DNA of 64,000 bases from Diphasiastrum complanatum (taxonomy: Eukaryota; Streptophyta; Lycopodiopsida; Lycopodiales; Lycopodiaceae). Under the pieces are notes generated by a model. That model did not search any database and was not told where the DNA came from. It was given only the letters and a program-made list of their open reading frames with translations. The stretch lies in NCBI GenBank assembly GCA_029204225.1, contig CM055095.1:15406049-15470048 (forward strand), given 5' to 3'. Within the stretch, counting starts at the first letter, position 1; each line of letters starts with the position of its first letter. Below are positions 29,901-64,000 of this stretch, piece by piece. The translations under genes and the position numbers were made by a program.

Positions 29901-32900
29901 GATTTGTCATAGGGACTGCTATCTGAGCATATTCCTTGACAAATCGTCTGTAATATCCCGCCAGACCAAGAAAGATTTAAAGTTCCAAAATATTCTGAGG
30001 TCTCAGCCAACTGAGTATGGCTTTAACCTTATTTGGGTCCATCTTAATCCCATCTGAAGAGATAATGTGACCCAAATATGCTACTTCTTCAACGAAGAAT
30101 TCACACTTGGATTGTTTAGCATAAAGCTTATGCTTTCTGAGCAGTCGAAACACCTTTCTGAGGTGTTTTAGATGCTCCTTCCTGGTTTTGCTGTAAACGA
30201 GGATGTCATCTAAAAATACGACTACAAATTTACCCAAGTATGGTCTGAGGACACTGTTCATCAAGGTCATAAAGGTAGCTGGAGCATTTGTGAGCCCAAA
30301 TGGCATCACCTTAAACTCATAATGACCGTGACGAGTCCTAAAGGCTGTTTTTGAGACATCTTCCGATTTTATACGGACTTGATGATATCCCGATCTAAGG
30401 TCTATTTTACTGAAAAACTTAGCCCCGTCGAGTTGATCAAACAACTCGTCTGCCCGAGGCATAGGGTATTTATTCTTAATTGTGACTTTATTGAGGGCTC
30501 TGTAATCTACGCAAAGACGCATAGACCCCTCCTTCTTTTTCACCAATAGGACTGGTGAGGCCCATGGTGAACTACTGGTCTGAATTTGGCCTTTCCCAAG
30601 ATAGTCTGTTAACTGCCTAGTTATTTCTTCATCCTCTGTTCGGCTGACCCGATACGGAGGTTTAGAAACAGGTGCTGTACCTGGTACTAGGTTTATTACA
30701 TGATCTACCTCTCTGCTAGGTGGTAAACCATGTGGCAAATTTTCAGGAAAAACATCTTTAAATTTAGACAATAAAGTTTCTAATTTACTGATTTTCTGCT
30801 GAATAGAATTGGAAATAGAAACTTCAGGAATAAACTGAAAGTCACATAAGAATACCTGATGGTCTTCGTCTCCGATTAGCTGACAGAGCTCTGAACTGCA
30901 GACCATAGGGCTGTTGGGAACATCATGCTCCCCATGCAACTGGATCTCTCGGCCTTTATACTGAAAGCTGAGGGTGTTCTCCTGATAGTTTCTCTGGAGG
31001 GAAGGTCCTAAACTGTAGAGCCAATCTCTCCTGAGAACAATGTCTGTTCGATCCAGGTGCATTATCTGAAAGTTTATTTGATCTTGGTACCCCTGAATAC
31101 CAAGATTTAACTTACTTACCATAGTTTCCCATATTTTTTTATCTTCACCCTTAGCTAATGAAACTATGTACCTATGCTGACTAGGTACTTCTGGTAGTTT
31201 AAGCTTTTTAACCAGGGTGTGGTTGATGAAATTATGGGTTGCCCCATCATCAACCATGACTCTTACTGACTGGTTACCAACTTTCCCATGCATACGTACT
31301 AGGTCATGCGGCCCAAAGCTGAAGGGTCTCGCTAGCATTGCAGAGGTCAGCTGGCAACAGTGTTCATGATCTTCATGGAACACTTTGATCTCGGAAGCTG
31401 CCGAGTCACTGGGGAAACATACAATCTGAACAAGATGAACTTGTTTTTTATCTTTTTTAGTGAAAGGCCCCTTGGGACACTGTCTGACTGTGTGTCCCTT
31501 GCCCATACACACAAAGCACAAACGTTCTTGTTTGGCTTTCTCAAAATCATCTGGTTTTAAGGGCTGTATGAGTGAAGGGCGTTTCTGAGGAGCTTCACCT
31601 TTAAATTTATCTTCTTTCTTTCTTTTTAAAAATTTCTTTTTAAATTGAAAGTCTTTCTGAGGAAGCTGCTCAGAAAGTGGTTGCTGTCTCGCTCTCTTCC
31701 TACCCACTGAATCATCATAGATTTGAGCATATCTGAGAGCTTGCTCAAGGGTAGTAGGCGAGTTTCTCTGGACCTCTACTTTATATTCATCTTTGAGGCC
31801 ACGGACAAATCCCCTGATTTTTTGATAGTCATCCATATTTTTAATCTTTAAAATTGCCTCTCGATACTGCGAGATATATTGGATGAGGGACTTGTCCATT
31901 ACTGTTCTTTCCCAGGCTTCCCAGGCTCTATCAAGTTCATTCTCTGGTAGAAATTCTCTTAGGAAAGCTTCTTCAAAAGCTTTCCATGACCGGGGAGTCT
32001 GCCCAGTCTCCTGGAGATTTAACCACCACTTATAGGCCATAGGCCCTAAAGAAAGACTGGCCTCAATTGCTTGCAAATGGTCAGGGGTCTGTTTAAGAGC
32101 ATGAATGTTCTTCCATTTGCTGAGGAAGGTTTGTAGAATATCTGCATTTCTATCCTTCTCTTCCCCATTAAAAGTAGGAGGCTTTAGATCTTTAAAAACA
32201 TTGGGGTGAGACCGTAAAGTCTCACCCGAAACTGATGGAAGAGGAGAAGGGGATAACTGAGAAGTGGAGGGAAGGCTTCCTTTCGCGGAGCTCAAAATCA
32301 AGTTTTTGAGTTCAGCGAACGAGTCGTCCACACTGGACTTGAAATTGGCTAATGCCAGCTTCAGTTCATCCACTTCTGTTACCAATTGGAGGAACTGCTC
32401 CTTGGTAACCAGTTCGTCGAGTTCTTCGGCGAACTGTTCCTGTTCTTCTACTTCCATGGGTTCCTTCCCTTTTCTGTAAGCCAAGGCTTCTGTTTCAAGT
32501 TCGTCGAAGCCTCTCTCCTGGGGTTGATCAGGTCCCTGAGGAGTGGTCATCTTCGAAACTGAAAGAGAGCTACCTTAACCTCTGAAGGAAAAAAGTCTAA
32601 AAGACTAATTTACAACTATACAAGGGAAAGGAAAGATGACTTAGCTGTTTCTGAGGACTGTACTTCCAAAGAAAGAATGAAGAGGAACCCTTTCAGCTCT
32701 TTTCCCCAAAATTTCAGACCTGCTGTTCCGAAATGCCAGTTTGAGGCTTCAAAACGATACTAAATTTCCCGGTTTTTTGAGGATAGTAGCTCGCTGGTCT
32801 GATTGCAATCCAACTTGTCCACAAAAAGGCAAATCTGAAGTCCAAAAACCCTTCTGAGTTCTGAAATTTCAGAAGTCTCCTACTCGCTGATCTGGTAGGA

Positions 32901-43281: not shown

Positions 43282-44602
43282 ATGGTGCCATCAAGGAAGC
43301 CGTGCTCTTCAATTGACTCTGTGCTTCTATTCAATGAGACAAATGATAATGGATTATGAGTGCCAAGAAAATATTCAAAAAACTCTTGGGTTTTGATGCA
43401 TCCATCATCAAGAGGAACATTTCGAAAAAGGAAAAGGTCAAAACTATCATTTTGATCTTCAGAACATCATCAGGAGAAAAATCTATTTCTGAAATTCTAG
43501 TCCAACATGTATATATGCATTCAGAGATAAATGTGTAGGGATTCAACCGTCAGGATCACCAAAAAAGCAACTGTGAGTATTGATATTTTTGATACTTTGA
43601 TTTTTGTCATTCATAAATATTTAATAGTAAATTTGCCAATCTGATCATTTTTCTCTTGTAGATTTATATCCATCCAACATAAATGAATGGGAGCCGAGTA
43701 GATCTTTTGCAGGTGTGTTAGATGTTATTCACTGATATTGGACAACTGCAATGTCGAGGTAAAACTGCAAAAGATCTAGCTGATAGTGAGATCTTTTTTT
43801 ATGAATCAATGTACATTCCTGATACAATTTTTTTTTTTGGACAAATAGTACCAATTCCATCACCTAGTTTTGAAAGTGATAAATGGATTGCACCAGATAC
43901 TACAGTTTCAAAATCATTTCGTTGCAAGATATATAATGATGTAAAAAATTCATTAAAAATGAGCACGGGATAAAAAATAGTCAGATTGAGTTGGTTTATT
44001 TCCTTGAATATATTTGTGGATTTCTTTTCAAGTGTCAATGACACAAAATCCCAACGATGTTTGTATGCAAAAATTTATCAGATAGTTTATTATCTGAACT
44101 TATGGATGAAGGCTGGGACAAAAGATCAGATGGAATGCAAAATTAAATTGTCTTCCATGTGCTTCCGTTATTAAATTGAAAAACAAATGTTGAGCTTATG
44201 CTTTCATTATCAAAGATGGAAAAATAAAAAAAAAAGACTCGATTAAGATTTGGAAGCCAGTGGACATTCAAAACGAAAAAATATTGAAATTATATACAAT
44301 GATGTCGTTTTGACGTGTGTTGAGGTGGAAGAAGATTGGAGTCTAAACTACATCAGGCAGGAACTATTGCTCCTACAAGATGATGTACTTTTAGACTTCA
44401 GATTTATTTTCAATGGTAAACTCGTAAGTAACTGTAAACACTCGATCTTTTATGAATAGTTTCAATCAAAACTTTCTAATACAATTTCTGTACTAATTGT
44501 AACTAACTTTGTATTAGTTTTATGCAGGTACGTAAAAGACATGAGCTCGAGATCAAATGTAGAGATATTGGCGAAACAATCCAACTTATGAAAGAACATT
44601 GA
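43282..44602 (+). pseudogene. Unknown gene X, copy A (degraded)
   Basis: It follows the layout of copy C. Exon 1 starts MVPSRKPCSSIDSVLLFNE and includes KNSWVLMHPSSRGTF and VQHVYMHSEINV. Exon 2 shows QLQCRGKTAKDLADSEIFFY and LSWFISLNIFVDFFSSVND. The last exon reads VRKRHELEIKCRDIGETIQL. Several stops and frameshifts break it. The function is unknown. The decayed Ulp1-like copy A converges on it about 240 bases downstream. Confidence 0.75.
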
Positions 44603-44845: not shown

Positions 44846-45860
44846 TTAGGAACTGATAAGAGAACAACTCCTTCTATAATTTCGCCCTCTACTATTTCGG
44901 AAAGGGCCCCAATGCCCTTTTAAGACAAGAGGACTCTTTGCTATAATATTGCCTTCCTCTGTATCAGGAAGGATTTTTATTCCTTTTTGATCATATAAAA
45001 TAAGATCTGCATCCTGAGCAACCTGAAAGGCTGTTAAGGCAGGAGCAGGTTCCTTTTGAGGGCCCTCGATCCCAAGTGCAACGCTTACATCGTACTGGGC
45101 ATAGGTTCTGATCAACTCTTGCCGAAATCTATATACATCATCAGGAGTACACGGCTCAAGAGTGAACTGTCATCACAAAACACGAGAATAAGCAAATTAC
45201 AAACAATGATAGTAAAAAAATATGAATCAGAATGAAAGGAACTACAAATGAACAAAATATTACCTTTTCAATATCTACATCCACTTGTAAATTATACCAC
45301 TCAAAAAATAGCTTTGTATTGTACATGACGAACCATGCACAACTAAAAGCGTCATTTTGCTGTACACACTGCATATATAAAACGAAAATTAGTAATATTA
45401 TGATAGAAATTTTATTTATGCTATGACGATACATTTGAATTAAAAAAGAAATACATGCATATCAGAGATAGATTGAATATACCTTGAGAGATCTAATGGT
45501 TATTTCTCCAATTGAAGTTGTCGTTGTCGGTATTTCCTGAACGACATCATGAAGTAGAGAATCAAATTTTCTATGTGTATTTGCAGCTGAGTTTAATTTT
45601 ACACATAAAAAATTTGATACTCCCTCCTTACTCATCTTTACAGAAAGAATGTTCAGGTTCCAATGCCGACTGCAACAACCAAAATACAAATATCGATAAA
45701 TCCATATTTCTGAAAGAGTTTCTTACTTATTAAAGACTGCATTCGATAAAATAGATAGCCTTCTCAAAATTGGCTTCTTTCGTTTTTATCGCTCCCATGA
45801 AAAATGGACTAACAACAAAAACTGTACCATGGAAATCGAAACTAATACTATTTAGCAAAA
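44846..45860 (-). pseudogene. Ulp1-like cysteine protease, copy A (N-terminus lost)
   Basis: On the minus strand the catalytic His segment is RHWNLNILSVKMSKEG, followed by CVKLNSAANTH, where Asn sits at the usual Asp position. The Gln/Cys segment is QQNDAFSCAWFVMYNTKLFF. Spliced pieces lie at about 45689-45483, 45370-45270 and 45165-44846. Farther upstream (45740-45860) only a short pre-catalytic piece remains. No histone-like part is found. The Gly after Cys is Ala here. Confidence 0.7.
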
Positions 45861-46216: not shown

Positions 46217-47575
46217 ATGGCGATGAGAAGAAGACCGAGATCCTTGATATGCTCTGCAATTTTTTATAATGAGAGGGAAGACAATGGCACATGGATTGCT
46301 CGTGAATATCATAAGGCTTCTTGGGTACTGATGCATCCATCGGCGAGAGGGGCTTTTCGCCAAAAGAAAAAGGCCAAGTATACATATAGATCTTATTGGA
46401 AAGGGCGGATTATTGATTTCAAAGTTTCTTCAGGAGGACAAACCATTTCAGAGGTGCTTATTCAACATGTTTATATGCATTCAGAACTTAATGTGGAGGC
46501 TGTAAATCCACATGATTTTTGAAAGTGTAATTGTAAGTATCTTAATTTTTTGGTTTGCTTGTCATTTTTAAAACGTAATCGTATATATGAATCGGAGCTT
46601 ATTATGATTTTATATTGTAGATCTATATCCTTCAAATATACATGAATGAGAACCTGTGGCATCTCTGTCAGATATTATAGATGTCATCCATTCAGAAATT
46701 GGCAAATTGCAATACAGAGGACGAACGACAAAAGAACTTGCAGATTCAGGAATATTTTTTTATGATGCTATGTATATTCCAGACATAAATGGAGGAATGG
46801 AAAAACTAGAGTGTATACCTCTACCTAATTTTCAAGATAATGTGTGGTGGATTGCAGTCAACGACAATATAATAAAATGTTTTTGTTCCAAGCTATATAA
46901 TGATGTACAAAAGTCACTCAATACTAGTACTGGATCAAGAAATGTGCACTTAAGCTGGTTTGTTCCAATGTCATTGTTTGTCAGCTAAACATGGAGGTGC
47001 ATCGAACTTCCACATTGTTTGTTTGCAAAAATCTATCAGATGATTTTTTATTCAAATTCATGGACAAAGGTTGGGATATAAGATCCACTGCAGATATTTC
47101 TTGTAGAATCAAACATTCATCCATATCATTTAGATACAGTATAGAGAAGCAAATGCTTAGTATGGCGTTTCATTATCAGAGATGGAAAGAACAGAATGGT
47201 ACTTGGGCCCCATTAGATCAAGATCTAGACAACATTGGACACACTGATCGTATATGCATTGATATCATGGCAAATGGGGAGTTACTTACCAATATTGAGG
47301 TTGAGCAGGACTGGACCTTATTCTACATTAGAACGGAACTGATACTTTTACAACAAGATATCCCCGAATATTTCAGCTTCATATTGGATGGAAAATTGGT
47401 ATGTGAAATCTATGAATTTGTATATTAATTTGTATTCATTATTTTTTTTTGTCAATATTTGGATCACTAACTGTAATTTGATTAACGTATGTTTGTGCAG
47501 ATATGTAAAAGACATGAAGAGAAAATCAAATGCAAAGATTTAGGCGGAATTGTTCAGATAATAGAGCAATCATGA
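46217..47575 (+). pseudogene. Unknown gene X, copy B
   Basis: Exons 46217-46532, 46621-47398 and 47501-47575 have GT-AG borders at the same places as copy C. Two in-frame TGA codons (46520-46522 and in exon 2 near 46645) and a frameshift near 46985 break it. Shared blocks: SYWKGRIIDFKVSSGGQTIS, EVLIQHVYMHSELNVEAVNP, VIHSEIGKLQYRGRTTKELA, LFVCKNLSDDF, SIEKQMLSMAFHYQRW. No known domain is recognised apart from a possible beta-grasp fold near the C-terminus (see copy C). Confidence 0.8.
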
Positions 47576-47753: not shown

Positions 47754-50200
47754 TTACAGCTCAAAGTAACATGGATTATCTCCACCTTGCACTAGTGTCA
47801 GCTGTGGACTTGATTGGCCTCCCGTTTCTGCAGCTGGACTGGGTGTTGCATGAGATAATAAGTTCACCAACATCTGTTGACGAAACTCATATATCTCATT
47901 CATTGTAAATGCTCGACATTTATACTGCAAATCGAAAAGAACCGAGTCAATTGACCTATCAAAAACCAAATCGAAAATAACTTAGTTAGGAAATTCACTA
48001 GTCTATTTACCTTTCGCATATCTGGAACCCCGGATTGCATGATGTACCACTCTAAGAAGTCATGTATATTGCGGATGGAGAACCATCCACAGCTATGTCC
48101 ATCATCGTGCTGAGCTGACTTCAATCAGAAAATGTATAATAAATTAGTTGTGCACTCTGAAAAAAGTAAATCATATTACCTATCAGATACTAGATGAGAA
48201 ATACTTACTTCTGCATCAACAATCTCCAGGTGGCTATTTACAGTGGCCCCATCCGGCCTTGGCAAAAATGGCAACATTTTGCTGTACATCACGTCCATTT
48301 CGGCATGGGTAGACTTTAAGGAGTTCATCTTTAAACAGATGAGATTAATGATCCCATCTGAATCTTCCCTAAGGGAGATTATATGCACACTCCAATGCTT
48401 ACTACAAACAAGAGATAATTAGTTAAACTGAAGGAATTACAAAAGTTATTAAAAATATGTGACTTGAATATATTCTATGTAATCACTTACTTTTGGCAAT
48501 ATGGAATAATAAAGACTTTGGTCTCCGAGGTTGTATGGAGAAGATACTTTGCTGCCTTAGTTGGACTATGAAGGATGTGTGCAAAAAAGGACAACACAAC
48601 TTCAATGTCCTTAGTATCATCACATTTACATCTATTTACAAAATAGATCAAACCAGCCTCCACAACTGGATCTGATATATCTACTGTCTTCTCCTTCAAG
48701 GCATCACAAAAGTCTTTATTTATGTGATTTACATAATTAATTGAACATAGACAAAAAGAAAATTGACCTCCTAGCTTATCAATTTCTTTGGCAACATACT
48801 CATCAAAAACTATATACCTCTCAAAATCCAAAAATGAATCTTTCGGATCAACTAGAAATCTTACACAAAGATCCTTATAAAAATCATCTACTAAAGTTAT
48901 ATCTAGATCCGATATTATTTTATCTAAAGTAGAGGTCATATCCTCGTTATTGTGGGATGAAATGGAGGGAATGGAAGAGGAATTACTTGAATAGCTAGGG
49001 GTGGCAGGAGGAGAGAACGACATTGCAGACTGGTGTGATGGTCCAACCAAAGGACGAGATATATGAGGGGGGGGATGGTGATTAGCTGACTACGACCCTT
49101 TGCCTGGCAGGCCTGGTGGGCTTGGTCTACTTTCTTCTTCTTCGTTGAGGAACAAGACCTCTCTCTGTAGGTGGTGGCCTAGAGGTGAAGCCACTCTTAA
49201 AAACTTGATCGTATGTACTCCTCAGTCTCATGACAAGATGCATGTCCTGAGACATGAGGGTAACTCTCTTTTTAATATTTACCTGTGCAAATGCCTCCTT
49301 TATCATCTTAAACATTGTTGCATATGCTTCCCTACTGATGTTAGAAAAGTCACATGCCCCCTGAAGCAATGTAATGTCTAATATTTTTCCAACCTCATCC
49401 ATAATGCTATCAGTATCTGAAGCCTTAATCTTTTTCATTTTGTTATTATTTAACATTGATTTCATAGATTTAGAAGTCAAGATAGAGCCTAGTGAGTTTC
49501 CAATTCAAATCTCATTGGCCAAATGGTCTTCAACAACCAATGCTGATCTGCATTGCAAACATAATATTCATGAAAATGTCAGTAGAAATTAGGACACTCA
49601 TAGTATTCACAGTAGTATATAATAAGCAAATCAACAGAAAGTTGAAATGAATAAATAACAAAATTAGTGATTATGAATGAATCAAAAAGTCCAAGCAATA
49701 TTCAATACCAAATAAGCTATAACTTACTTGAATGTATAGATTCGTCTTTTTCTATGACCTCCTCTGGATGATAGATCACATATATCCTTATTTACCAGTC
49801 TTTTCCTCTTGTTGCTTCGGACCTTTCTGTTGAGCACATCCATATCTTTAACAAGAGACAAATATGAGATACGCATGGATTGAAATGCAGTTTTTATCTC
49901 ATCATTACTAGTTGTATAATGATGCAAAGAAGATTTCAACCTTTGGATCTCCTTCTTGAGCATCTCATTTTCATCCAAACAAGTTTTCATCTTTGTAGAT
50001 TTTTCTTTGCACTCCTTTGATATTTTCCTTGATTCTTCTTCCAAATAATGTATTCTTTGCATTGAATGTGCATTCCCATAGAGCATCAAATTCTCACAGT
50101 AACCCAAAAGGCCATATTTACCATGACACATATAGATTATTAACTGACTCAACGAATGAAAATCTGGATGTTGCAATGAACATGGATCAATAGGATACAA
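47754..50200 (-). CDS. Histone-fold/Ulp1-like cysteine protease, copy B
   Basis: Minus-strand gene in several exons. 50200-49724 encodes a basic coiled-coil segment (LEEESRKISKECKEKSTKMK) ending in a KRKR-type cluster. 49480-49127 has a weak histone-fold-like stretch with KKRVTLMSQDMHLVMRLRST, matching the H3 phrase [18 protein letters not shown], then FKSGFTSRPPPTERGLVPQR. 49050-48487 is the pre-catalytic part ending KVFIIPYCQK. The His segment KHWSVHIISLRED lies at 48400-48180 (His-Trp at 48392-48397), with Asn in CLKMNSLKST; Gln (48110-48112) and Cys (48089-48091) are in SAQHDDGHSCGWF. I see no stop inside the catalytic exons, but one (TGA) in the region joining the coil and histone exons. 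Exon borders are partly uncertain. Confidence 0.7.
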
Positions 50201-51059
50201 TGTTCTTGATGACCATAAATCTACATGCTTTAGCTTTTCCTCCCTGTATCAGACCATATCAGAAGTTGACAATTTGGGTTGCTTTGAATTTCTTGTCCTG
50301 AGCGGAGCATATTCTGGTGACAGATTCACATGAAGATAACAAAGCTTTGTCATCAGTACAGTAGTATAGTAACAAACAACACAATGACAATAACAAAGCT
50401 GGAGATGGCAGTAACGACTCTGTTGGAGATAGAGATGGCGCTAAACACTTGTTTTTGACCCTAGAGATAGAGATGGCGTAGGCTTTGTTTCAGAAATGTT
50501 ACTCCTAATTCAAATTTTTGAGTGTTCCCAACTATTGGGAGGGAATATTTCAGCATTTTAAAAAATTATATTTCAACTATGGTTAAGCACTAGTGAAGTT
50601 TGATGTGATTAAACTAAGGTGCATTCATTTACATGGAAAGTAGTGCGGGCAGATGCGTAAAGAAGTTAGAAAATGATATTATAATTACTTTATAGTTATT
50701 TTTCTCTCTCTTACATGGCATTTCTTATAAGGCTCTCTTTGGGCCCATATTTTCTCTAATGGTTGGCAAGTTGCTTAAAATCAATGGCTTAATCTTTTTA
50801 ATTGATATATGTATATATGAAGAACATGTATGTGAATGAATTTGATGACATTTGTGATAGTTAGTGAGAAGTGAATTTTAAAAGGAGTGATTGAAATGTA
50901 CACTTGCATTTTGTATCATTATACTATTAACAAAAATGAATCAATTAGAACTTTTTCCTTGAATAGAACATAAATATTTAGGCTTGTTTGAAGTTCAAAA
51001 TAGAAGTTTTTGTTTAGTTTTATGTATAGATTTTTGTGACTATCTTAAAGGAGTTGTTT
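50201..51059. other. Intergenic, nothing recognised
   Basis: AT-rich sequence upstream of H3/Ulp1 copy B; it probably contains that gene's promoter. Confidence 0.4.
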
Positions 51060-51300
51060 TCAATCTCATGGAGAAAGAGTTGTGGGACATCATTGCAAGC
51101 ATAGAGGTGAGGCTGGACACTACTCCAGCTGACATGAGGGCTTATGACTGGAAGGCACAGAGAGCGTTATCTTTGATCAATTTATTAGTGAAAGATTATG
51201 TGATCACCCACATAAGTGACATGATGACAACCAGAGGGGCTTGGGAAGCCTTGAGAACACAATTCCAAATCACCAATCCATCTTGTGCAATCATTAGAGG
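51060..51300 (+). pseudogene. Ty1/copia Gag (UBN2-type) fragment
   Basis: LMEKELWDIIASIEVRLDTT, then AQRALSLINLLVKDYVITHI, aligns with the copia Gag at 7000-7250 (LTFINLLVKDHIITHI). It is isolated, with no pol. Confidence 0.8.
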
Positions 51301-51548
51301 AGTTCCAAGGCCCAAAAGGGTTGGATGCCACATAAGAGAGAAAACTGTTCGATTTTAAAACTCGGACCAAGTTTTTGGTCTGCCCGCACAACTCCGATGA
51401 CTTGACCTCACTAGTAATGTGTGTAGTTTATGGTTTTGTGGTTTAAGCTAATATTGTTTTGTTATTATAGGTCTAAGTTTTAAATATACTTGATCGAGTA
51501 ATACTGTTCAATTCTCTTAACATAGTCCATGATTTTGTGTTTCAAACA

Positions 51549-51990
51549 GGTTTTAAAAGAAGATTATGACATTCTATTTTGGATTTTTAGTAAAACAGAT
51601 TATCCAGAGATAATCAAGAATCATATGAGCGGCACACCACTCAATGTTCCTGGAATAGGTAATTTTAAGGTGGAATGGCATTTGGCTGGAGACCGGAAGT
51701 TGTTGAAGTGCATGTTCAACATCTCACATGGAGCAAATTCAAAACATCCATGCCTCTATTGCATGAAAACTACATAAGACATATCGAAGAGCATGAGAGT
51801 TTCAAGGGATATAGAAGATTCGACTTGGAAACCAGTACTACTGATTCTGCTTAAAATGTCCACATTTGTACACTACATGGAGGTTAGAATTATCGAAAAA
51901 TTGATATACCTTCATATTTGGTTTGCCTGGAATACTACCAGAGTCATTAGCCAAAAAAACATTAGAGGAGTTCTCAATATCAAAAAGGCC
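51549..51990 (+). pseudogene. Transposase-like gene T, fragment 1
   Basis: Blocks shared with the minus-strand copy at 58.7-59.15 kb: VLKEDYDILFWIFSKTDYPE, LNVPGIGNFKVEWHLAGD, KCMFNISHGANSKHPCLYCM, then VRIIEKLIYLHIWFAWNT. An acceptor (CAAACAG) precedes it. One stop follows CLYCMKTT and a frameshift follows near 51860. I do not recognise a named superfamily. Pairing of an Asp-bearing LAGD motif with CLYC and a later Glu is reminiscent of cut-and-paste transposases, which is inference. Confidence 0.55.
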
Positions 51991-52408
51991 TTTTGTAAAG
52001 ATACTTTAAATTTTTTTTCTTTAGTTTTGATTCTTTAATCAAAATGCACAGATTTGAAATCTACGTAATGTAGTTCAAATTAACTAAAAAATAAAAATGC
52101 AATATAGAAAACTTTGAAATTTGTGTCCGGGCAGCATGGACATATCCCATTGGTTTCTTCTTCCTGCCCGACACGTGCTAATCTGCCCGACGTCAATACC
52201 TCAAGTTAAATTTACTTGACTATGCTGGTTAGTATAATGAAATTTTCTAACTATACTTGTTACAGTTATAGAAATATAGTATGTACAGTTACATAAAATA
52301 TGGTATGCGCAGTAACTGTGACTATGTTGGCATTCACATTAGATTAAATGTGATACGAAAAATTATCATATCAGAGAGATTTTTGGCGCCCAAGCTTTGA
52401 AAATAGCA

Positions 52409-53781
52409 ATGGCAAGGAGACCCAGATCTACAATCGATTCTGTGATTCTTTACAATGAGAAAGATGAAGCTGATAATTGGAAGCCAACAAAATATACGAA
52501 GAACTCATGGGTATTGCTGCATCCATCATCAAAGGGCAATTTTTGACAAAAGAAAAGAGCAAAAATGACTTACAAATCTTATTGGAAAGCAAAAATTTTG
52601 GAGTTTAAGACTACCCTGGGAGGTCAATCGATATCAGAAGTCTTAGTGCAACATGTATATATGCATTCAGAAATCAAAGTACATAATATCAATCCTCATG
52701 ATCATAAAAAATGTAATTGTAAGTATATCAAAACATATACACTCTACAACAATCATAGGTGATTTCCTTTATTGATGCTCTTCAGATTATGATGTAAATG
52801 CCTCAACATTGTTTTTTTCTTTCAGATTTATATCCATCATGCATAAGTGAATGGGAGCCCGCACAATCACTTGCAGGAATATTAGACGTGATTCACTCTG
52901 ATGTTGGAAAGCTGCAATACAGAGGAAGAAGTCCAAAGGAACTTGCAGATTGTGGTATCTATTTTTATGAATCTTTATATACGACACAAACAGATGGAGT
53001 TTTTGGCAAGCTCGAAGCAATTCCTTTGCCTAGTTTTCAAAGTGATGAGTGGCCTACTCCTGACAACATTGTTTCTGAATCCTTGAGATGCAAGCTACTC
53101 ATTGATATTAGAAATGCTATGAAGATAAGCACAGGCTCAAAAATTATTCACCTAAGTTGGTTTATCTCATTGCATATATTTGTTGATTTTTTCTCGAGTG
53201 CTAGTGTTCGTAGGACACCAACTTTATTTGTTTGCAAGGATTTATCAGATGAGACTTTTTCAGATCTCATGGATCAAGGCTGGGATAGTAAAACAAATAA
53301 TGACATAGATTGCAGGATCAAAAAGTCCTCAATGATCTTTCGTTATCATATCGAAAAGCAAATGCTCAGTCTCACATGTAGCTACCAGAGATACAAGAAA
53401 ATTGAAGGTACATGGCTACCACTGGATCAAGACTTTGAACTAAATGGTTACACAAACCGAATGGAGATAAGCATTATCTACAATGAGGAATATTTGACTA
53501 TGGTTGAGGTAGGAGAGCATTGGAAGCTTGATTTTATCAAAACAGAGCTCATGCTATTACAAACCAATCTACCAACATATTTCAGATTTATCATCAACGG
53601 AAGACTCGTAAGTATTTTATGTTTATTTCCATTTCAAAATAGAACAAAATAATAGAAAATGTCATCATTTACAATTGCACATTCACTAATATTTGCCATG
53701 TCACAGATGCGAAAAAGACAGGAGCTGATAACGTGCTACAAAGATCTACCTACAACAATCACCATTGTGGGAGAACAATAG
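52409..53781 (+). CDS. Unknown gene X, copy C (best preserved)
   Basis: Three exons, 52409-52718, 52826-53607 and 53707-53781, with GT-AG borders and matching phases, about 388 residues. It starts MARRPRSTIDSVILYNE. The only defect seen is one TGA near 52535, where copies A and B have CGA/CGC (Arg), so CGA to TGA decay. Blocks: SYWKAKILEFKTTLGGQSIS, VIHSDVGKLQYRGRSPKELA, GSKIIHLSWFISLHIFVDFF, LFVCKDLSDETFSDLMDQGW. The last ~70 residues (EISIIYNEEYLTMVEV, then an IKTELMLLQ helix, then FRFIINGRL) look like a beta-grasp (ubiquitin-like) order; that is inference. Convergent with H3/Ulp1 copy C. Confidence 0.8.
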
Positions 53782-55227
53782 TTTCAAATAAACTTTAGTA
53801 AAAATCTGTGTATACACTCTTTCATTCAATAAATGAAAGCCCAAGTTGGGCATCTATACATGTATTTTGTGCTCCCAAATTCATAAACTTGAGCAGCATT
53901 TGATATATCAATGTATATTTTTCTATGAAGTCTATACATGTATTTTTGTTCTATGCTATCTATATTTTTTCTGATCTTAATTTAGTATAACTACATCATC
54001 CTTTGCACCATCATCAATAATGGGAGGTTGAAGCCTTGCCCTAGCTAGTATACTCAAGAAAATTTCTTGTCTAAATCTGTACACCTGGCTTGATGTGTAC
54101 TCAAGAAGTGTAAACTGCAAAATAGAATATTCATGTATTGGTAATGGCCAAAAACATCACCATAATAGAAAACTAATCATGATTCCAAAATAAAAATAAA
54201 CAGAATCTATTATCTTAGAAATATCAACATCTTGTTGAAGGTTGAACCACTCTAAAAACAACTTGGCATTGTATAATGTGTACCACCCACAGCTGAATGA
54301 ATCATTTTGCTAGGGTGACTGCAAAATAATTCAGCACACAAGAAATCAATTATGAAACAGAATGAATTGGATTGAAAATATTTCATTAGAATACTGATTT
54401 CAAAATGCTATTAAGAAAGACAGAGTTTACCTCCAAACTGACGATCTGCCAGTCCACGGAATGGGGAACGTCTGTTGGAATATATTTACTTAGATATGGA
54501 AGGCATATATCTACATCCTTATGCGTATTTCTCGCCGAATTCATCTTGACACAAAAACCTTTAATAATATTATTTATAGATCTCTTAATAGAGATCAGGT
54601 TTAAACTCCAGTGGTCACTACAAAATAAGATTGAAATTTCTTTAGCTTCAATTCTGAGAACTATTTCCATTGACAATGCCAATGTTAATGCATAAAACAG
54701 CAAGAAGCATTTAATATATCTTACTTCGTATGATAAGATATGAGCATATACTTTGTTGCTGGTGTGAATCCACTTGTCAGACACTGTGACAATGTGTCAT
54801 TATTCTCCTTGAAGGCCTGAAGCAGAAAGTTACTCAGCACCAGCAACTCATTTGATGAATCTCTTGCAATGTCATATTGCAAGAGTGTAAGCCCGGACTC
54901 TATCACAGGATCATTGATAGGAGCCCATCTGACTTTAATACTAAAATCAACTTCATCTAGTCTAAAGCAAAAAGGAGTACCAATAGTATCTATAGCATCG
55001 GATATGTCTTTCTCAAATTTAAGATAATCATCCGAATCTATATATGTATAAAAATTTGGGGGAGGAGGAGGAGGTGGATGTGTAGTATCTACAACAATTG
55101 AAGGGGTATCCAAAACAAGGTAGCTATATTTACAGCATTATCAACAACAACGTTATCTACAATGGATTCCGGGTTAGGCTTCACAGAATCTGAAGGGTTA
55201 GGCTTCACTTTCTTAGGAGCATGCTTG

Positions 55228-55250
55228 GGGTTTAGGGTTTAGGGTTTAGG
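55228..55250. repeat. Telomere-like TTTAGGG repeat
   Basis: About three units of TTTAGGG sit exactly where the histone-like frame of copy C stops, replacing the segment that follows KDM/KDF in copies B and D. Confidence 0.85.
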
Positions 55251-55602
55251 ATAAAAAATCCTTGGGCATTATGGTAACCCTCTTGAAATGGATGGCAAGC
55301 AAAAAAGAATCCTCAAAAAAAAGGCTAATGTAATCTTCAGTAGCCTCCTGAAGGCACTGAAGAGCACTAGGTGTGAATCTAACCAGCTGTCCGAGATCAT
55401 TTCTTGTTATGTTTCAGACAGCACGGTAGAATGGAGCTCTTGGGATCAACAAAGCTGTTGATCTCTAATACTTGCGTATCTCAGAGAGCCACCTGCTGCG
55501 GTTGCGCGTTCTAGGTCTAGCGGGTGGTGTGATGGCAACCGCAGGGGATGAGGATGAGCCAGGAGAGAAGAAGTCCCTCCTTGTCTGCTTTCTCCTATCC
55601 AT
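55246..55602 (-). pseudogene. H3/CENH3-like histone domain of copy C
   Basis: The start Met at 55602 opens MDRRKQTRRD, an H3-type tail. Residue 37 onward reads RWLSEIRKY, a stop (TAG at the Gln of RRYQKST), RSTALLIPRAPFYRAV, and a second stop (TGA at the Arg of VREI). The frame continues [40 protein letters not shown] and [11 protein letters not shown]. All in one frame without gaps except a loop 1 one residue longer than canonical H3. LLIPRAPFYR and [13 protein letters not shown] recall plant CENH3. Both stops look like C-to-T changes. Confidence 0.9.
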
Positions 55603-56397
55603 GGATGTGTACTATGTGATAGCGGACTTGTGCGTGACGGTTAGGATGACCAGGGAGGGATGATAAAGAACTCGCAGAGGACCGATATGTGCGAGCCGAA
55701 TATCAGAGAGAACGACTAGTTTTGAGGAAAGACGCACAAGTGCGATATGGGGTGACATGTAGGCAGATGTATCAGACCTGTGAACATGGAAGGCAGTAGG
55801 AGGAATTTCGATTGTGAAGGACGCGCACAAGTGCGATATGCAGAGCCTAAAAAAAAGTGAAAAAAATTCATCAAAGTTTGTGATTTTATATCGCGGTTCA
55901 CACGTGCAAAAGAACATCCTGTCACACGTGTGAGAGTTGTACGAACAAATGCAAGAGTGACATGTGTCACCTTGTCACATTACACGTGTGAGATTTGTAC
56001 GATCAAATGTGAGAGCGACATGTGTTGTTGAGCAAATGAATGAACATGCAACACATGTCCAGGTGTCATTTCACACGTGTGCAGGTGTCACCTCACACAT
56101 GCCTGTGCCTGTAGTCCAATTGAAAGTTGACACGTGTCCTAAGTTCGTTGACCACACATGCAAAAATTTAGTATAAATGGCACGAAAACTGATTAATTTT
56201 TTATCTTTTCTGTTCTCAAAATTCGCGGCATATTGCTCTTGTGCGCTCGCATTGCCTTCCGTTTGCCTGCAATGGTACCTACTCGCGCACAAGTGCAATA
56301 TTCGGTATCTGCCTGCCGTACATATCTCTCTTGTGTGTCATTTTGATAGTTAGTTTTGGTTCAGTTCTCCCTCGCGCACAAGTGCAATATTCTTACT
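55603..56397. promoter_or_regulatory. Divergent intergenic region with repeated motifs
   Basis: It lies between H3/Ulp1 copy C (leftward) and gene Y (rightward). A near-palindromic motif, CGCACAAGTGC(G/A)ATAT, occurs at 55733-55748, 55824-55839, 56286-56301 and 56375-56390, with an inverted copy (one mismatch) at 56230-56246. The centre (55895-56160) has many CACGTGT and ACATGTG boxes. A bidirectional promoter or transposase-binding array is likely. Confidence 0.7.
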
Positions 56398-57844
56398 GAA
56401 AACCTAGACTATTTCCACAGTCTATTCAGGCCATATCTACATGTTTTCAGGACTGCACAACCAAATTTTGACGTATTTTATGACCATTATGTCAGATTCA
56501 GAGATATACTTAGTAAGCATGTTTTCTCCATAGGTCCACTCCAGTACATGCATTATACTGATCTTGTTCATTTCTTCCCAGCTTTTAGACATAGACTGGA
56601 TAGAATGTTCACCAAATTGTTTGATCTTTTCAAAGCAGTTCAATGTGTCCGTATTGCAACAAGAAATGTCGATTGGTTGAATTTTAGAGTGGTTTCGTAC
56701 TTTTTCTGTTAGTTCAGATCCCAGATGATGATGAAGTTTCTATTGCTGACCGTCCTTTTGCACCATCCTCTGTTCAGTCAGCTATTAAGGATATCAGTCA
56801 CTTCCTTATCGACACTCCTGATAAGGAAAGTGACTTTATTGATGTAAATACTAATGTTCTCCGGGATTCTTTCATTGGCCAAAATACATCTGATGATAAA
56901 TCCAAATCTATGGAGGAGTCAAAATGTCTTTTCAATTTGCCTATATATTATATTAATGACAATGTATATTTTACTACTGCTGATTTATGTAAATTTTTTG
57001 ACTATCGTGAGGACGAGGTTCTATCTTTATTATCCGGCACAATTTCCGAATTCTCCGACTTTGTAGATTTTGAAACAGATGACCTTGTTGTTGGTATTGA
57101 TTTTGATGATGAGGAGGGACTTATGACCGGTGAAGAATGCCTGAATAAGACTTTATCAAATATAGCTAAGAACGGGCGAGGCAGACCATCGGATGAAGAA
57201 TTCACGGCATTTTAATCCCAGATGGGCTTCCCTCGTCCATCATTAATGCATTTCACTAATGATTCCACTTCAGTCGGTGGTCATTATATTGATCATCCTG
57301 ATCTATTTGCTGCTGATGATGAAGAATGTGTAAGTGTTTAATCTTCCTTGCATTTGAATGTTTTCAATCACTGAATGTGTTTTTGCTAACATATTTCCTA
57401 TTGCAGGATGCTCTCATAATAGATGATTTTGCTGCAAGACGAGGTGGTTTCAGACAACATGTATCCTCGTTCCAGAGGGACAGTGGACTGGGCCACTATC
57501 TTAGGCATTTCCTGAAGAATGAGATCTGTATTGCTCATTTCAAGTTGAGCCCAGCCGGGGAGAGTCTTATAATGGCAGTTAGAGCTTTATCATTTTACCT
57601 AGGAGGACATAAATTTGTTAAGATGAATAAGATCATTTTTGTCAAAAGATCTTATGTTTTGAACATTTTAGGCTTTACTGATGGGAATGTTCCTTTAAGG
57701 AGCTCCCATTATTCATTGTATTACACTTATATTGAGCTTAGTAAAAATAAGGATAATGCACATCTATTAGATGCATACGCTAGCAGAGAATTTCTTCATG
57801 ACAATACTGCCATAGAATCTGATACAAGATCTGGTGATGAATAG
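56398..57844 (+). CDS. Unknown gene Y
   Basis: At least three segments. 56398-56636 encodes an aromatic-rich helical stretch (DYFHSLFRPYLHVFRTAQPN). A short intron (56637-56717) is possible before the acidic segment IPDDDEVSIADRPFAPSS (56718 on), which continues through YREDEVLSLLSGTISEF to 57215, where a TAA interrupts before DEEC. A GTAAGT donor (57330) and TTGCAG acceptor (57405) lead to the last exon, 57407-57844 (DALIIDDFAARRGGFRQHVS ... YVLNILGFTDGNVPLRSS), ending TAG. No domain is recognised. Start codon is unclear: an ATG at 56273 is not in frame. It probably belongs to the same mobile unit as its neighbours. Confidence 0.5.
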
Positions 57845-58049
57845 TTGACACTTTGTATTTTGGTATAATACAATCAATACATTTACATTAGGTATTTCTC
57901 ATCTCTTGTTCAATGAATTTGCAAAGCAATTCTGAACATGTCATGATTTGATGACAATGATGATTTTCTACTCATCAATCATCTAATTTCCTCTTCTTGT
58001 ATGAACGCATGCTTTTCTAAACTTGTTATATTGTGTGGCCTTTGTTATA
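57845..58049. other. Spacer between converging genes Y and T
   Basis: About 200 AT-rich bases, similar in size to the spacer between X and the Ulp1-like genes. Confidence 0.4.
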
Positions 58050-59710
58050 TGTCAAATCTGAACTCTGCGGTAGAACCACTGAAACAATTTACAAATGTAG
58101 TTTCGTTTTTCATTGGTTCCTCCATGTTGTGTATTTCGATGAAATGCTGCTCGTGCTTGCCAGTGTGACTTCTCCATCCCTTGTGATGACCATACACTCA
58201 AGCTTCCATATGTATTTGCAAAAAATGTTATATGATCTCTTAGTATGTGCTGCATATGTCAAAATCATAATGTTAGTCTTATGTTTGGATCTAAATATAT
58301 ATATGAAAATTTGAAAGCATTTTGAAAATTTTATACTAACCATGTAATGAGTGATGTGATCTTCTCCCCATGCTTTTGATACTGCATTAACAAACTCGAC
58401 ACAAGTCCTTTGGACAGCTTTCTTATCAATATCGGAGTATTTTTCTTTTCTTAAAATAGCAATCACTATCACGCTTTTTTCATACATCAACTTTTAGTAC
58501 TCTGGTTTTGCCATCTTTCTCGAAGTCCTGAGTGGCAGCAATAATATATGTCCAGACTGAGTGTTGAATATTAGAAGCCTTACCAGTATGATTTGATAGA
58601 AAACAACGTGCTTTTGCTCCTCCTATGCTTGGCTTAGTTGGCATGTTCCCATTCTTTCTTGAAAGCTTTTCATCTTTTCGAATTTTGACATGTCCTCTAT
58701 GGAGTCTTGCTTTTGATAAAACATCTTCTAATCAAGAGATAGCTTCCTTTGCTAATGATGCTGGCTTAGTATTCCAAGCAAAAACTATATGAAGATAAAT
58801 GATCTTTTCTATTAATCTAACTTCTGCATGATGAGTGCAAACATGCACATCTTTTAAGGGGATAGGCAGCACAGGTTTCCAGTTTGGATCTGCATATTCT
58901 CTAGTAATTTCTATACTCCTAGTACATCTTTTGCCATTTTCATGCAGTACAAACAAGGGTGTTTTGATGTAGCACCGTGAGAGACATTATACATACATTT
59001 CAATGTTCTCAAATCACCTGCTAAGTGCCATTCAACATTGAAGTCTCCAACTCCTGGAACATTGAGAAGTTAGTCCTCCATCCATATGGTCCTTGAGAAT
59101 ATCCATGATAATATATCATGATCCTCTTTCAGCACCTGTCCAAAGAATTAATCAGACTTAGTTTACAATGTATTAATACTATTCAATGAATGTAATGTAA
59201 TAATGAGGCTAGTTACCTAAAACGCTGCCAACCACCATATATCATTTTCTGACTAGACACTGAATTTGAAATCTTCTTGGTTCTCTGTTTGTGATAGAGC
59301 ACCATTCATGAAAGTTATACTAACACTCTCCATCTTCTGCTCTTTCACAATTTCTGACTCATCTAACTTAAGTACTATGATTATTTTGCCATTCACCTTT
59401 TCATAGGTTATATCATAGAATGTGACGATGTATCTCAACAGGTAATTTAGATCAACAAATAAATTGTTTGATGAATTATAGAATATCGATCTTCCATCAG
59501 TTTCATATACCTACTCAATATGAAATGGAGTTCGCTATGACGCGAGATGGAAAGAAGTTGCCCCAAAATCAAACAGTCCTCACGTGATGGCGATATTGGT
59601 GACTGACAGGATATCACAGTGACGCGAGGGATACAAGCTCGTACAGACTGTGACCTAGATTTTCTCGTGGTAGCAATATTGCCTAGAACAGGAAGTGTGG
59701 ACACAAACAA
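58050..59710 (-). pseudogene. Transposase-like gene T, copy 2
   Basis: Minus strand, right to left: DITYEKVNGKIIIVLKLDES at 59438-59250, ending FKFSV and a stop. Then VLKEDHDILSWIFSRT (about 59145) and FNVEWHLAGD. A CLYC motif like that at 51.7 kb follows, then SIEITREYADPNWKPVLPIP, EVRLIEKIIYLHIVFAWNTK (58956-58732) and GEDHITHYM near 58350. Frameshifts and stops are frequent. The protein family is not one I can name; its repetition next to the H3/Ulp1 genes suggests it is the mobility protein of the unit, which is inference. Confidence 0.55.
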
Positions 59711-60379
59711 GAGCTACGGGGAGTGAAAATCGAAAACTAAGCGATAGTTGTAAACTGATCGAACAACATTTATATAGCTAAAACCAATAAAATCCAAGCC
59801 GTACATGCATTGATCCAACAACGGATCAGATCTCACATGCGTAATGTAATCGTCCACATGTGCTAGTCCACACGTGCAACAATACACGTGAATTTGCCAT
59901 TCGGACATGTGCCCACACGTGCGAGAATGCACGTCAATTTACCATTCGACCCCATGTCCACATGTGCAGTTTTACATGTGCGAGTCCACACGTCATTTTT
60001 TGATTCGGCCACGTGTCGCAAGTGCACACATGTGTGAACTTTTTTTGGCTATATAAGTCCATTCCCCATGATTTTTTAGGTTTTTGTTCAATTTTGGTTT
60101 CTTCCTGGAATGCTACCAGAGTACTTGTAGACCCGATATCGCCATTATGTGAGGACCTCCCCCCCCCTCTGACTCAGCTCCTTTCTCGCGTCATAGTGAT
60201 ATCAGCTCATAGTTTTCACTATCGGCATCACACGAGAGAACCCAATATCGTGTGATGTACCGCTATCTTCGCGTCGTAGAGATATCCATCTGTACCACCC
60301 AATATCGCCATCACGCAAACATGTCTATCATTCATCACCATGGTAACACTCTCTCGTCTGGTAGAGATATCCGACCTCA
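59525..60379. promoter_or_regulatory. Divergent intergenic region with inverted motif arrays
   Basis: It lies between gene T (leftward) and H3/Ulp1 copy D (rightward). CGTGATGGCGATATTGG (59583-59599) has an exact 17-base inverted copy at 60299-60315. AGGATATCACAGTGACGCGAG (about 59608) mirrors CTCGCGTCATAGTGATATC (60185). Related sites lie at 60133, 60241, 60268 and 60351. The centre (59835-60030) is full of CACGTG and CACATGTG boxes. The arrangement is symmetrical and matches the layout at 55.6-56.4 kb with different flanking motifs. Confidence 0.7.
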
Positions 60380-62060
60380 ATGGCTCGGATGAAGCAAACC
60401 GCTAGGCTAACTAGCTTTGCTGAGCCAGTCCACTGAACCTGTACGTCCGCAAAGACATGGAAGACCTCGTCGTCCATGGTTGAGGGACATTAGGGGGTTA
60501 CAAAAGAGCACCAAGCTTCCGATCCTGAAAGCAGCCTTGTACTGGGCTGTGAGGGAGGTCACGCAAGATATGACTACTCATCTGCCCTATGCAGTGAGGT
60601 GGAATATCATTGCTTTGGAGGCATTCCATACTGCATACGAGGACTTCCAGAATAAAATGTTTGAGGATTCGATCTTGTGCTCGATACATGCCAAGAGGGT
60701 GACACTGATGCCCAAAGACATGCCATGAGGCTTCGGAACACCTATGACAACATTTTTAAGTCTGGCTTCACACAGAGGCAAGTTCCTCTTGAAAGGGGGC
60801 TTGTCCCATCCCAAAAATAGAGAAAGCAGACACAACCCAAGCGTTCAAAACCCCAGCCTAGGTCTCCCAGCTCTTCACCCTTGCCTCCTCCCATTAAAAA
60901 AGATGTGACAAGTACATCGGCAATTCCATGGGTTGAGAGTCCTCCCGTAACTCCTAGGATCTTGAAATCCAAAGTTCTCCTTCTCAACATGCGGATGATT
61001 TAAATAAATACAATGGTGGACAAGATTGTTTCTGATGTTGATGCAACTGATAAAGAGTTGCATATCAGACTCCCCAATGATCCAAATGACACATTCTTTG
61101 ATTCTGAAAGATACATTGATTTTGATATGTATATAGAAAAAAATAGATGATCTTGGAGGAGAGTTTATGTTTTGTATATATGATATTAATTTTAGAATGC
61201 ATATCAAAGACCCGCATTGTAAGGAGCTAAAGGAGAAGACCTCCCATATCTCCGACATAGTTGCTGAATCTAGGTGTGTATACTATGTACATAAATACAA
61301 ATATACAATCACGAAGGAGATTTTTGTTGTATCTCTATTTTTTGGACATCTGTTGCATAAAGAGAGGAAAGCCAAAAGGCTCTTCAGGCACACAAGCAAG
61401 GAGGCATCAATATTCATCATCCCATACTGTGCAAAGTAAGATATTTTTTTTTTGGAAACTCTTATAGATTTTAGTAATTTATTGCTTCTCATTTGTTGGC
61501 AGCAAACATTGGAGCGTGCACATAATATCTTTGAAAGTGGATTCTGCTGGAAGCTGCACACCTGTGTGCATGACAATGAATTCCTTGAATGCCACCCATT
61601 CCATTGTTAACTCCATGTACAAGAGAATGGTGGGGCTATTGCCAAGCCAGATGGGCTGATTGTAAATATTAACTTAGAGATTGTTGATGAAAAGGTAAAA
61701 GGATCTTTTCACGTTTTTTATTTACATGATGGTATGGAGTTTAAAATTAAACTCACAGACAACAACGGTCCAATCACAAGTCAGGACCCTACCCGGTGGG
61801 AGTTTTGAATTGTATAAAAATATGATCAAAAAGTTCCAAAAAAATCTATGGAAATTGCAGATCCTGTAGCAACCTTCTAAGCCAAATTATCTCCTTCACT
61901 GTTGATGTAGTTGCAACGTATTCAGATTATGTAGAGGACAACGAAATGCATTTCGGCTTTCTACTGTTCCATAAAATGGGTCCTCCTGCAAGGAAACAAA
62001 TGTAACATGATGTGGATTTTTTGGTGTCCAAGTCTCCTGTCCAATCTGAATCTGAATAAG
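60380..62060 (+). pseudogene. Histone H3/CENH3-like domain fused to Ulp1-like protease, copy D
   Basis: The ATG at 60380 opens MARMKQTARLTS, very close to the H3 tail. One frameshift before about 60430 leads to WLRDIRGLQKSTKL, VREVTQDM, RWNIIALEAF and FEDSILCSIHAKRVTLMPKD, the histone fold, then a second frameshift and RLRNTYDNIFKSGFTQR as in copy B. The protease pre-catalytic part is 61018-61436 (ending FIIPYCAK). After an intron (61437-61502) the His exon reads KHWSVHIISLKVDSAGS with MNSLNAT (Asn). The Gln/Cys exon is absent: after 61695 an unrelated sequence follows. So the protease would be dead. Confidence 0.85.
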
Positions 62061-62092: not shown

Positions 62093-64000
62093 TTATAGCT
62101 CAAAGCATAGTGCTTCGTAGCTTGAATGTACTTTTATACTCTTTGTAGAGTCTTCTAATGTTGTAGTCCTAGATTGGACATGTATTGAGACAGTGTGCTT
62201 ACTACATATGCTAGATGAGGTCATGTGCAGATCATAGAATACATTATAGATCCTATGACAGACTGATAAGGATACCTGCACATTTCTTGCTGATCTGCTT
62301 GAGTTCTGGGGCACATGTCTTTGGACAGCTTTGATCTAGGATCCATAGGTGTGTCTATGGGCTTGCAGTCCACTATGCCATATCTACGTAGTACATTGAT
62401 TAAATAGGACTCTTGGCTTATAGTGATCCTTTTGCTTGCGTGATCTCTATTGATCTCCATACCGAGTAAGTAATGAACTGGGCCTAAATCAGTCATCTCA
62501 AATTCTGATGAAAGCAAAGACTTGTTTTCATGTAGCACCTGATTTGAATTGTTGATAATTAATAAATCATCAACATACAATGCTATAATAACATAGCTTA
62601 CGCTTGAGATACACATTAGAGTCTACGAAGCAAGAAGTGAAATTATGCTACAACAAGAAGTGGTTGATTCTTTCATACCAGGCTCGGGGAGCTTGCTTGA
62701 GGCCATATAGTGCCTTGTGCAATTTACATACCAAATGCTCTTGGCCTTGAAGGACGTAACCTTCTGGTTGATAAATGAATATGTCTTCTTGTATGTATCC
62801 ATGAAGGAACGTTGTTTGGACGTCCATCTAGTGAATGTCTAGACCCTTTACAGTAGCTTATCCAGCAAGGTGCGAATAGATGATGCTTTACCAATGGACT
62901 ACCACTGTACTGAAGGTGTCAGTGTAATCTATTCCATATGCTTGCTCAAATCCTTTACCCACTAAGCGAGCTTTCCATTTGGATACTGATCCATCTGGCT
63001 TAAGCTTTAGCTTGAAGATCCATTTAGAGTCAATATGTTTTATACCTGCAGGAGGATTAACAAGATTTCAGGACTTGTTTTTTATCAAGGAACTATACTT
63101 AGCATCCATTGTAGCCTTCCAGCTATCTACATTTGACGTTGACAATGCTTCTGCAACAGTGGAAGATTCATCATGACTGATAAACGCTTGAGGGATGAAA
63201 TGATTAGGTTGCTGTCGTTGACGTGTAGATCTTCGGACTGTAGGTGCTTGAGTTGATGTTTCTCTTGGGTGAATGACTGTGATAGCTTCATCTTGTGGTT
63301 GAACAGTCATGGGACTAAGCCCATCGATGGTGAATGGAGTTGTTGGGACAAACTCCTGCATTTGAACGTTCGTAGGTTGTTGCCTATCGATGGAAAATGG
63401 AGCTGTTGTGATAGACTCCTGCATTTGCTGCTTCTGCTTGAAATCATGAAACTTGTCTTCAAGGAAGACAACATCACGACTGACTGAGATATGTCCTATG
63501 TCGATATCATAGATACAATATGCCTTGTGTGACGTTGAATAACCGACAAAGATATACTTATAGCTTACTGGGTCTAACTTCTTCCTAAGATCAGACGAAA
63601 TTTGAGCATAGTAGAGACATCCGAATATACGTAAATGTTTCAGACTTGGTTTGTAGTCATAGTAGGCTTCAAAGGGTGTCTTGGAGTCGATTGCGTTCAT
63701 GCTGGAATAATTTTGTAGATAGCAAACTATAAAGATTGCTTCAACCCAAAAGTTCTGGGGTAATTGAGCGTCGACAGTCGCGGATCATGCAGCTTCCAAC
63801 AATGTATGATTCTTTCGCTCACAGCTATGCCATTCTGTTGTGGAGTGTAGCTGGCTGTGAACTGATTGTGCATGCCACATGATGATAGGTAGTCTGCCAT
63901 TTCATTTGATAAGTATTCTCCTCCTGTATCAGACCAAATGGTCTTGATTCTCTAACCAGTTTGGTTCTCAACGAATTGCTTGAACTCCTTGAAGAAATTG
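62093..64000 (-). mobile_element. Ty1/copia element, pol, cut by window end
   Basis: Minus strand, right to left: integrase core (SDTGGEYLSNEMADYLSSCG, YTPQQNGIAVSERNH, about 63970-63790), integrase tail with LRIFGCLYYAQ (63650), and a proline/glutamine linker. Reverse transcriptase begins [20 protein letters not shown] (63000); its YVDD box is ALYVDDLLIINNS (about 62570), and LGPVHYLLGMEI precedes RNase H. The end is degraded by 62093. A stop splits the frame at 63068, and others follow. Neither LTR is in the window. Confidence 0.93.

Follow-up and report, generated by a model that had tools for sequence, protein, structure and literature searches.

Ulp1-type proteases recur across several kinds of transposon, according to the accessible text of PMC2836005. 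In plants, the accessible portion of another report places Ulp1 domains in Kaonashi/VANDAL elements, attributes to VANC-type relatives an action against silencing, and describes the precise role of the Ulp1-type protease in VANDAL elements as unknown (PMC13317346). In this study, a 64,000-nucleotide stretch of the Diphasiastrum complanatum genome (GenBank assembly GCA_029204225.1, contig CM055095.1, positions 15,406,049 to 15,470,048 of the forward strand), referred to below as the window, was analyzed for genes in which such a protease is preceded by a histone. As read from the sequence, the region from 43 to 62 kb of the window contains four decayed copies (A, B, C, and D) of a repeated Ulp1-type protease gene, with a histone-like domain ahead of the protease in three of them. 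The first-pass annotation of this DNA had described repeated genes of this kind; their repetition was confirmed, and a further, protease-only copy, A, was found within the window by tblastn. It had also known of no described transposon family with the fusion, and none was found in open-access PubMed Central text.

Copies A (45680 to 44849), B (49504 to 47757), and C (55602 to 53980) lie on the minus strand, and D (60380 to ~61750) lies on the plus strand. All four are broken by stops, frameshifts, or missing halves, and the observed copies of the fusion gene are dead. In C, both in-frame stops fall within the histone domain; B carries a reading-frame shift in the linker, and in D the reading frame is shifted at least twice (near 60430 and 60722). 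Copy A starts only at the His-Trp segment, and no histone match at E ≤ 1 was obtained upstream of it with tblastn. The exon structure of the copies was inferred from open frames and homology.

The Pfam Histone profile (PF00125), which had been suggested as a check, matched C with 84.5 bits (E = 9e-24) and D with 58.8 bits (E = 8.1e-16), above the cut-off of 26.4 bits. When solved structures in the PDB were searched, the best match was histone H3 for C (E = 3.4e-19) and H3.3 for D (E = 3e-16). Chance does not account for these matches in C and D, and a significant core-histone match with H3 entries at the top assigns both predicted domains to the histone H3 family. Both copies begin with a KQT-containing tail, xRxKQTxR, which resembles the canonical H3 tail and suggests that the histone is the start of the protein.

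Whether this histone is closer to canonical H3 or to CENH3 was addressed with an H3 profile of six rows, a CENH3 profile of four database rows labelled by the analyst, and a larger CENH3 set to which two plant CENH3s from outside the database were added by the analyst. The respective scores were 76.3, 79.2, and 87.1 bits for C, 71.6, 73.3, and 78.3 bits for D, and 10.3, 12.2, and 13.8 bits for B. The lean toward CENH3 in C and D was 2 to 3 bits with the database rows and 7 to 11 bits once the two added sequences were included; in B it was 2 to 3.5 bits. In a tree of 18 sequences (C, D, 14 database rows, and 2 added by the analyst, with B left out), C and D were joined (89/87), both on long branches for which the program flagged a long-branch warning; none of the 15 inner branches was starred, and H3 and CENH3 placements of C and D were not separated. 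The earlier label “CENH3-like” is possible. An H3-family histone in C and D with a slight lean to CENH3 rather than canonical H3 (2 to 11 bits by profile) is suggested, while the tree does not separate the two and the KQT tail is H3-like.

For the protease, the spliced pieces of B and C, the two copies scored in this form, reached 23.3 and 25.8 bits with the Peptidase_C48 (Ulp1/SENP) profile (PF02902), the other check suggested earlier, and so lie above its cut-off of 20.7 bits as predicted gene models. A profile of all four copies found SENP2 as its best match among solved structures (E = 1.9e-4). The catalytic His-Trp is present in four of four copies, and Gln and Cys are clear in three (A, B, and C); the Cys segment of the D protease was searched for and not found. 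Of the segments listed previously, His-Trp is present in C and D, and Gln and Cys are clear in C.

The alignment of B with D (1015 versus 1057 bp) takes in the histone and the linker and reaches as far as the end of protease exon 1. Directly after the last histone helix, both have the linker MRLRxTYDxxFKSGFTxRxxPxERGLVP, with 23/34 residues identical (67.6%; E = 3.3e-11), in agreement with the earlier observation that FKSGFT...P.ERGLVP ties B to D; a tblastn search of the D histone-linker against B gave E = 1.6e-15. Since the B/D alignment includes the histone, the linker, and the first protease exon, the fusion probably predates the B/D split. A codon-position test was conducted on 16 pairwise segments, which are non-independent and whose p values are uncorrected. 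An excess of differences at the third position was observed at p < 0.05 in 15 of them, the exception being protease exon 1 of C versus D (p = 0.27). Differences at positions 1, 2, and 3 numbered 42, 32, and 65 in the 91 histone codons of C versus D (p = 1.2e-6), 20, 20, and 31 in the 44 codons of the histone end of B versus D (p = 0.0053), and 9, 10, and 18 in the 34 codons of the B/D linker (p = 0.012). This excess implies that divergence took place while the copies were still coding, and that they decayed afterward. For C versus D, it indicates that the histone domain evolved as protein, or alternatively it could reflect host-gene selection before two separate captures; the linker shared by B and D argues for a single fusion event. 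As far as sequence can say, one gene is favored over two neighbors. The fusion of an H3-like domain to a Ulp1-type protease reported in the first-pass annotation is upheld in C and D, and B is a collinear relative in a degraded state (Table 1).

Table 1. Features of the repeated protease genes and their surroundings, in window coordinates
Feature	Coordinates	Strand	Evidence
Gene X copy 1, interrupted by stops; tail-to-tail with A	43291..44588	+	tblastn with X3, E = 1.7e-74
Copy A, limited to the C-terminal half of the protease (His-Trp, QxxxxFSCAW)	44849..45680	-	tblastn with C, E = 3.7e-24
Gene X copy 2, tail-to-tail with B	46223..47572	+	tblastn with X3, E = 2e-104
Copy B Ulp1-type protease, about four exons	47757..48885	-	Spliced pieces, Peptidase_C48 23.3 bits
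Copy B degraded histone-like domain and linker	49130..49504	-	Pfam Histone 20.6 bits, below cut-off; collinear with D
Gene Y fragment (HLAGD..SHGAxSKHPCLYC), upstream of X3	51541..51954	+	tblastn with Y4, E = 2.3e-47; blastn pair
Gene X copy 3 (X3), tail-to-tail with C	52409..53610	+	Relative P0016, 90% identity over 78% of X3
Copy C Ulp1-type protease, about four exons	53980..55038	-	His-Trp at ~54.62 kb, QxxxSFSCGW at ~54.3 kb; spliced pieces, Peptidase_C48 25.8 bits; tblastn map
Copy C linker	55039..55248	-	CCCTAAA units of telomere type at its start, in place of the linker conserved in B and D; sequence reading
Copy C histone H3-like domain and N-terminal tail, two in-frame stops	55249..55602	-	Pfam Histone 84.5 bits; PDB H3, E = 3.4e-19; 76.5 bits in six-frame scan
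Motif-rich non-coding stretch upstream of C	55700..56400	+	CACRYG repeats, four GCACAAGTGCRATAT; 16 CACRYG/CRYGTG sites in 55603-56400
Gene Y fragment, head-to-head with D	58735..59510	-	Homology; no Pfam match
Motif-rich non-coding stretch upstream of D	59840..60040	+	CACRYG repeats; 18 sites in 59780-60379 (600 bp); repeat family D3
Copy D histone H3-like domain	60380..60725	+	Frameshift near 60430 after MARMKQTAR; Pfam Histone 58.8 bits, six-frame scan 52.8 bits
Copy D linker, opening MRLRNTYDNIFKSGF..ERGLVP	60722..61079	+	67.6% identity to B over 34 residues, E = 3.3e-11; collinear with B
Copy D Ulp1-type protease	61080..61748	+	His-Trp segment kept, Cys segment not found; tblastn with B, E = 3.7e-30; alignment

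The best explanation, put forward tentatively, is that the ancestor of the repeat family encoded one protein, a chromatin-tethered deSUMOylase loosely similar to the proteins of Kaonashi/VANDAL elements. Such an ancestor would have comprised an N-terminal H3-family domain (a short xRxKQTxR tail and a histone fold), a basic, proline-rich linker of ~120 residues, and, at the C terminus, a cysteine protease of the Ulp1/SENP type. The histone part would bring the protease to chromatin through pairing with H4 or binding of H3/CENH3 chaperones, and the protease could there free silencing or centromere proteins at the family's own chromatin of SUMO or a similar modifier; deSUMOylation may in turn favor expression or persistence of the repeat family. 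As a precedent, SENP6 maintains CENP-A chromatin according to the accessible text of PMC6981222. Tethering and a SUMO or histone substrate, both suggested in the first-pass annotation, are likewise inferences. A more specific version is considered unlikely: in it, a selfish repeat of plants would have made a SUMO protease able to enter nucleosomes, with an H3/CENH3-like histone of its own as a targeting device to centromeric or silenced chromatin, where SUMO would be stripped from silencing or kinetochore-assembly factors. A histone-fused Ulp1 would point straight to chromatin as the site of action, making the role testable, and would exemplify a repeat family with its own histone variant.

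Several observations weigh against a chromatin-tethered deSUMOylase. The Pfam Histone match of B (20.6 bits, E = 5.5e-4) is under the cut-off and covers the last 30 profile positions, including KKRVTLMSQDMHLVMRLR. The model of its histone part, built from a three-row alignment, had a mean predicted local distance difference test score (pLDDT) of 51.3, and none of its nine Foldseek matches at E ≤ 10 was a histone, for which reason a histone fold is not claimed for B. Helices in histone-like order, seen by eye in the same model (pLDDT of ~51), were dropped as support for such a fold. Membership of B in the family was assigned from its alignment with D. The linker of C is unlike that of B and D. 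At the end of the C histone part (55227-55250) there are CCCTAAA-like units (two full, one short by a base, and one partial), which we take to be of the plant telomere type and which are perhaps filler from break repair; like the copia/gypsy-like open frames, they hint at a plant host. Given these units and the different linker, C supports the domain order and not the linker. In the protease, Asn stands at the position of the SENP2 Asp in four of four copies, and protease activity, even of the ancestor, is therefore uncertain. Kaonashi proteases were deemed unlikely to act on SUMO, given their low expression and distance, in the accessible text of the plant ULP nomenclature (PMC6117577), a verdict that weakens the SUMO analogy; the word Ulp1 occurs 0 times in the accessible text of a VANC paper (PMC10398659).

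Searches for relatives and for signs of mobility bear in the same direction. A whole-fusion profile retrieved 15 proteins from 7427 candidates, all of them with histone domains, none with C48, and with a query cover of 18 to 27%, and a linker-plus-protease profile had no match among 3087 candidates. The search was word-based, and introns also soften its negative outcome. Since close relatives of the neighboring gene X are present in the same database, the missing fusion relative counts against a living fusion gene. Viral contigs searched with gene X and the protease (30 and 33 pattern matches) and prokaryote contigs searched with gene X (88) gave no confirmed relative. The description of the genes as mobile-like was not substantiated. 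No transposase domain was found at E ≤ 0.01 in a six-frame Pfam scan of 42.5 to 62.5 kb, which was unspliced and insensitive to split or decayed domains, as it missed the intron-split protease and the B histone. The scan listed Histone at C and D, together with two matches under their cut-offs, copia gag at 22.8 bits and RVT_2 at 17.5 bits. Likewise, no convincing terminal inverted repeats were present in the examined stretches, where only short, weak inverted matches were observed (among the 25 of 59 pairs listed, and in the upstream regions of B, C, and D). It is probable but not certain that the fusion family, along with gene X, was carried by a transposon.

The same evidence can be read as a clustered host gene family in which gene X and the protease gene form repeated tail-to-tail pairs, with no transposon and with the fusion as a host innovation. 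The pairs X1-A, X2-B, and X3-C in one orientation over ~12 kb, the missing transposase domain in the six-frame scan, and the six uninterrupted relatives of gene X would agree with this arrangement, but copy D is inverted, all six relatives come from a single source and carry no given name, and the copies are strongly diverged, decayed, and near copia fragments, going by the reading of the sequence and weak Pfam matches. A host gene family is considered somewhat unlikely. Passenger capture, in which the family took up a copy of a host H3/CENH3 gene, as Pack-type elements do exons, and the histone part is functionless, is regarded as rather unlikely. Against it argue the linker and the histone end that B and D have in common, each of which shows an excess of third-position change (p = 0.012 and 0.0053, respectively), and the matching N-terminal placement of the histone in three copies; for it speak the breakage of all copies, the histone of B lying under its cut-off with the protease over, and the fact that two host-gene captures could likewise produce the third-position pattern of C versus D.

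It is improbable that the histone and protease belong to two adjacent genes, or are separated by exon-skipping, and were not translated together. Between the histone end (49231 in B and 60725 in D) and the first shared protease block (48850 and 61078), the distance is similar, ~381 versus ~353 bp, and the linker behind the histone shows coding-type change and aligns throughout in B and D. These points are set against the frameshifts or stops that separate the parts in B, C, and D, the interrupted linker of C, and the outcome of the profile searches, in which no fused relative was found.

Among the neighboring genes, gene X had six stop-free relatives among 3969 candidates, with 52 to 90% identity over 68 to 78% of X3. 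All six came from one source labelled lgn, which we take to be assembled public reads. No Pfam or PDB sequence match of weight was obtained for gene X; its structure model (pLDDT of 36.5) was not used, and a beta-grasp look of the C terminus, noted by eye, was unsupported by the Pfam and PDB sequence searches. Gene Y, with the motif HLAGD...KHPCLYC, had no Pfam match and is possibly a transposase. Just before the first Y fragment, at 51062-51277, lies a copia-type gag fragment (Retrotran_gag_2, 22.8 bits versus a 27-bit cut-off). Open frames designated gene Z (56688-57841), with no Pfam match of weight, occupy the interval from C to the second of the Y fragments. Just past D, where its X partner would be expected, copia-type polyprotein-like open frames are found on the minus strand (62221-63951), and farther away two long open frames on the minus strand (27772-32574) read as a gypsy-type retroelement.

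The non-coding stretches upstream of C and D are rich in CACRYG/CRYGTG sites, with 16 per 798 bp before C and 18 per 600 bp before D, versus 0 per 796 bp before B and 1 per 498 bp before A. The copies of GCACAAGTGCRATAT upstream of C start at 55734, 55825, 56287, and 56376. The window mean was 0.89 sites per 500 bp, and values of at least 5 per 500 bp were observed only upstream of C and D. Across 200 block shuffles, bins reached at most 7, versus 14 observed, and 13/200 shuffles had some bin of at least 5, for a motif that was picked after viewing the sequence. The motifs may be promoter or element-end motifs.

Compared with known systems, the locus resembles the Kaonashi/KIU Ulp1-bearing VANDAL Mutator-like elements (MULEs) of plants in that a repeat-borne C48/Ulp1-type gene lies beside other element genes. 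It differs from them in that no MULE transposase domain was found in the six-frame scan of 42.5 to 62.5 kb, by which split domains are missed, and the word histone occurs 0 times in the accessible text of two papers on Kaonashi/VANDAL elements (PMC13317346 and PMC6117577). With the SENP2/Ulp1 SUMO proteases, the copies share the best solved-structure profile match, an aligned His-Trp segment, and a Q...C segment matched by motif; unlike these, they are strongly diverged and have Asn at the Asp position and an N-terminal histone. With plant H3/CENH3, they share the H3 core and the KQT-containing tail, copy C reaching 53% identity, across 86 columns, with an H3-family protein of a green alga (P0003), whereas the shortened tail, the C-terminal protease, and a loop 1 that by eye is longer by one residue in C and by four in D set them apart. 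The Ginger1 DNA transposons of animals likewise have an element protein with a C-terminal Ulp1 domain, in one case with an added PHD finger, according to the accessible text of PMC2836005, but Ulp1 is joined there to a Gypsy-integrase-like transposase and here to a histone H3-like domain.

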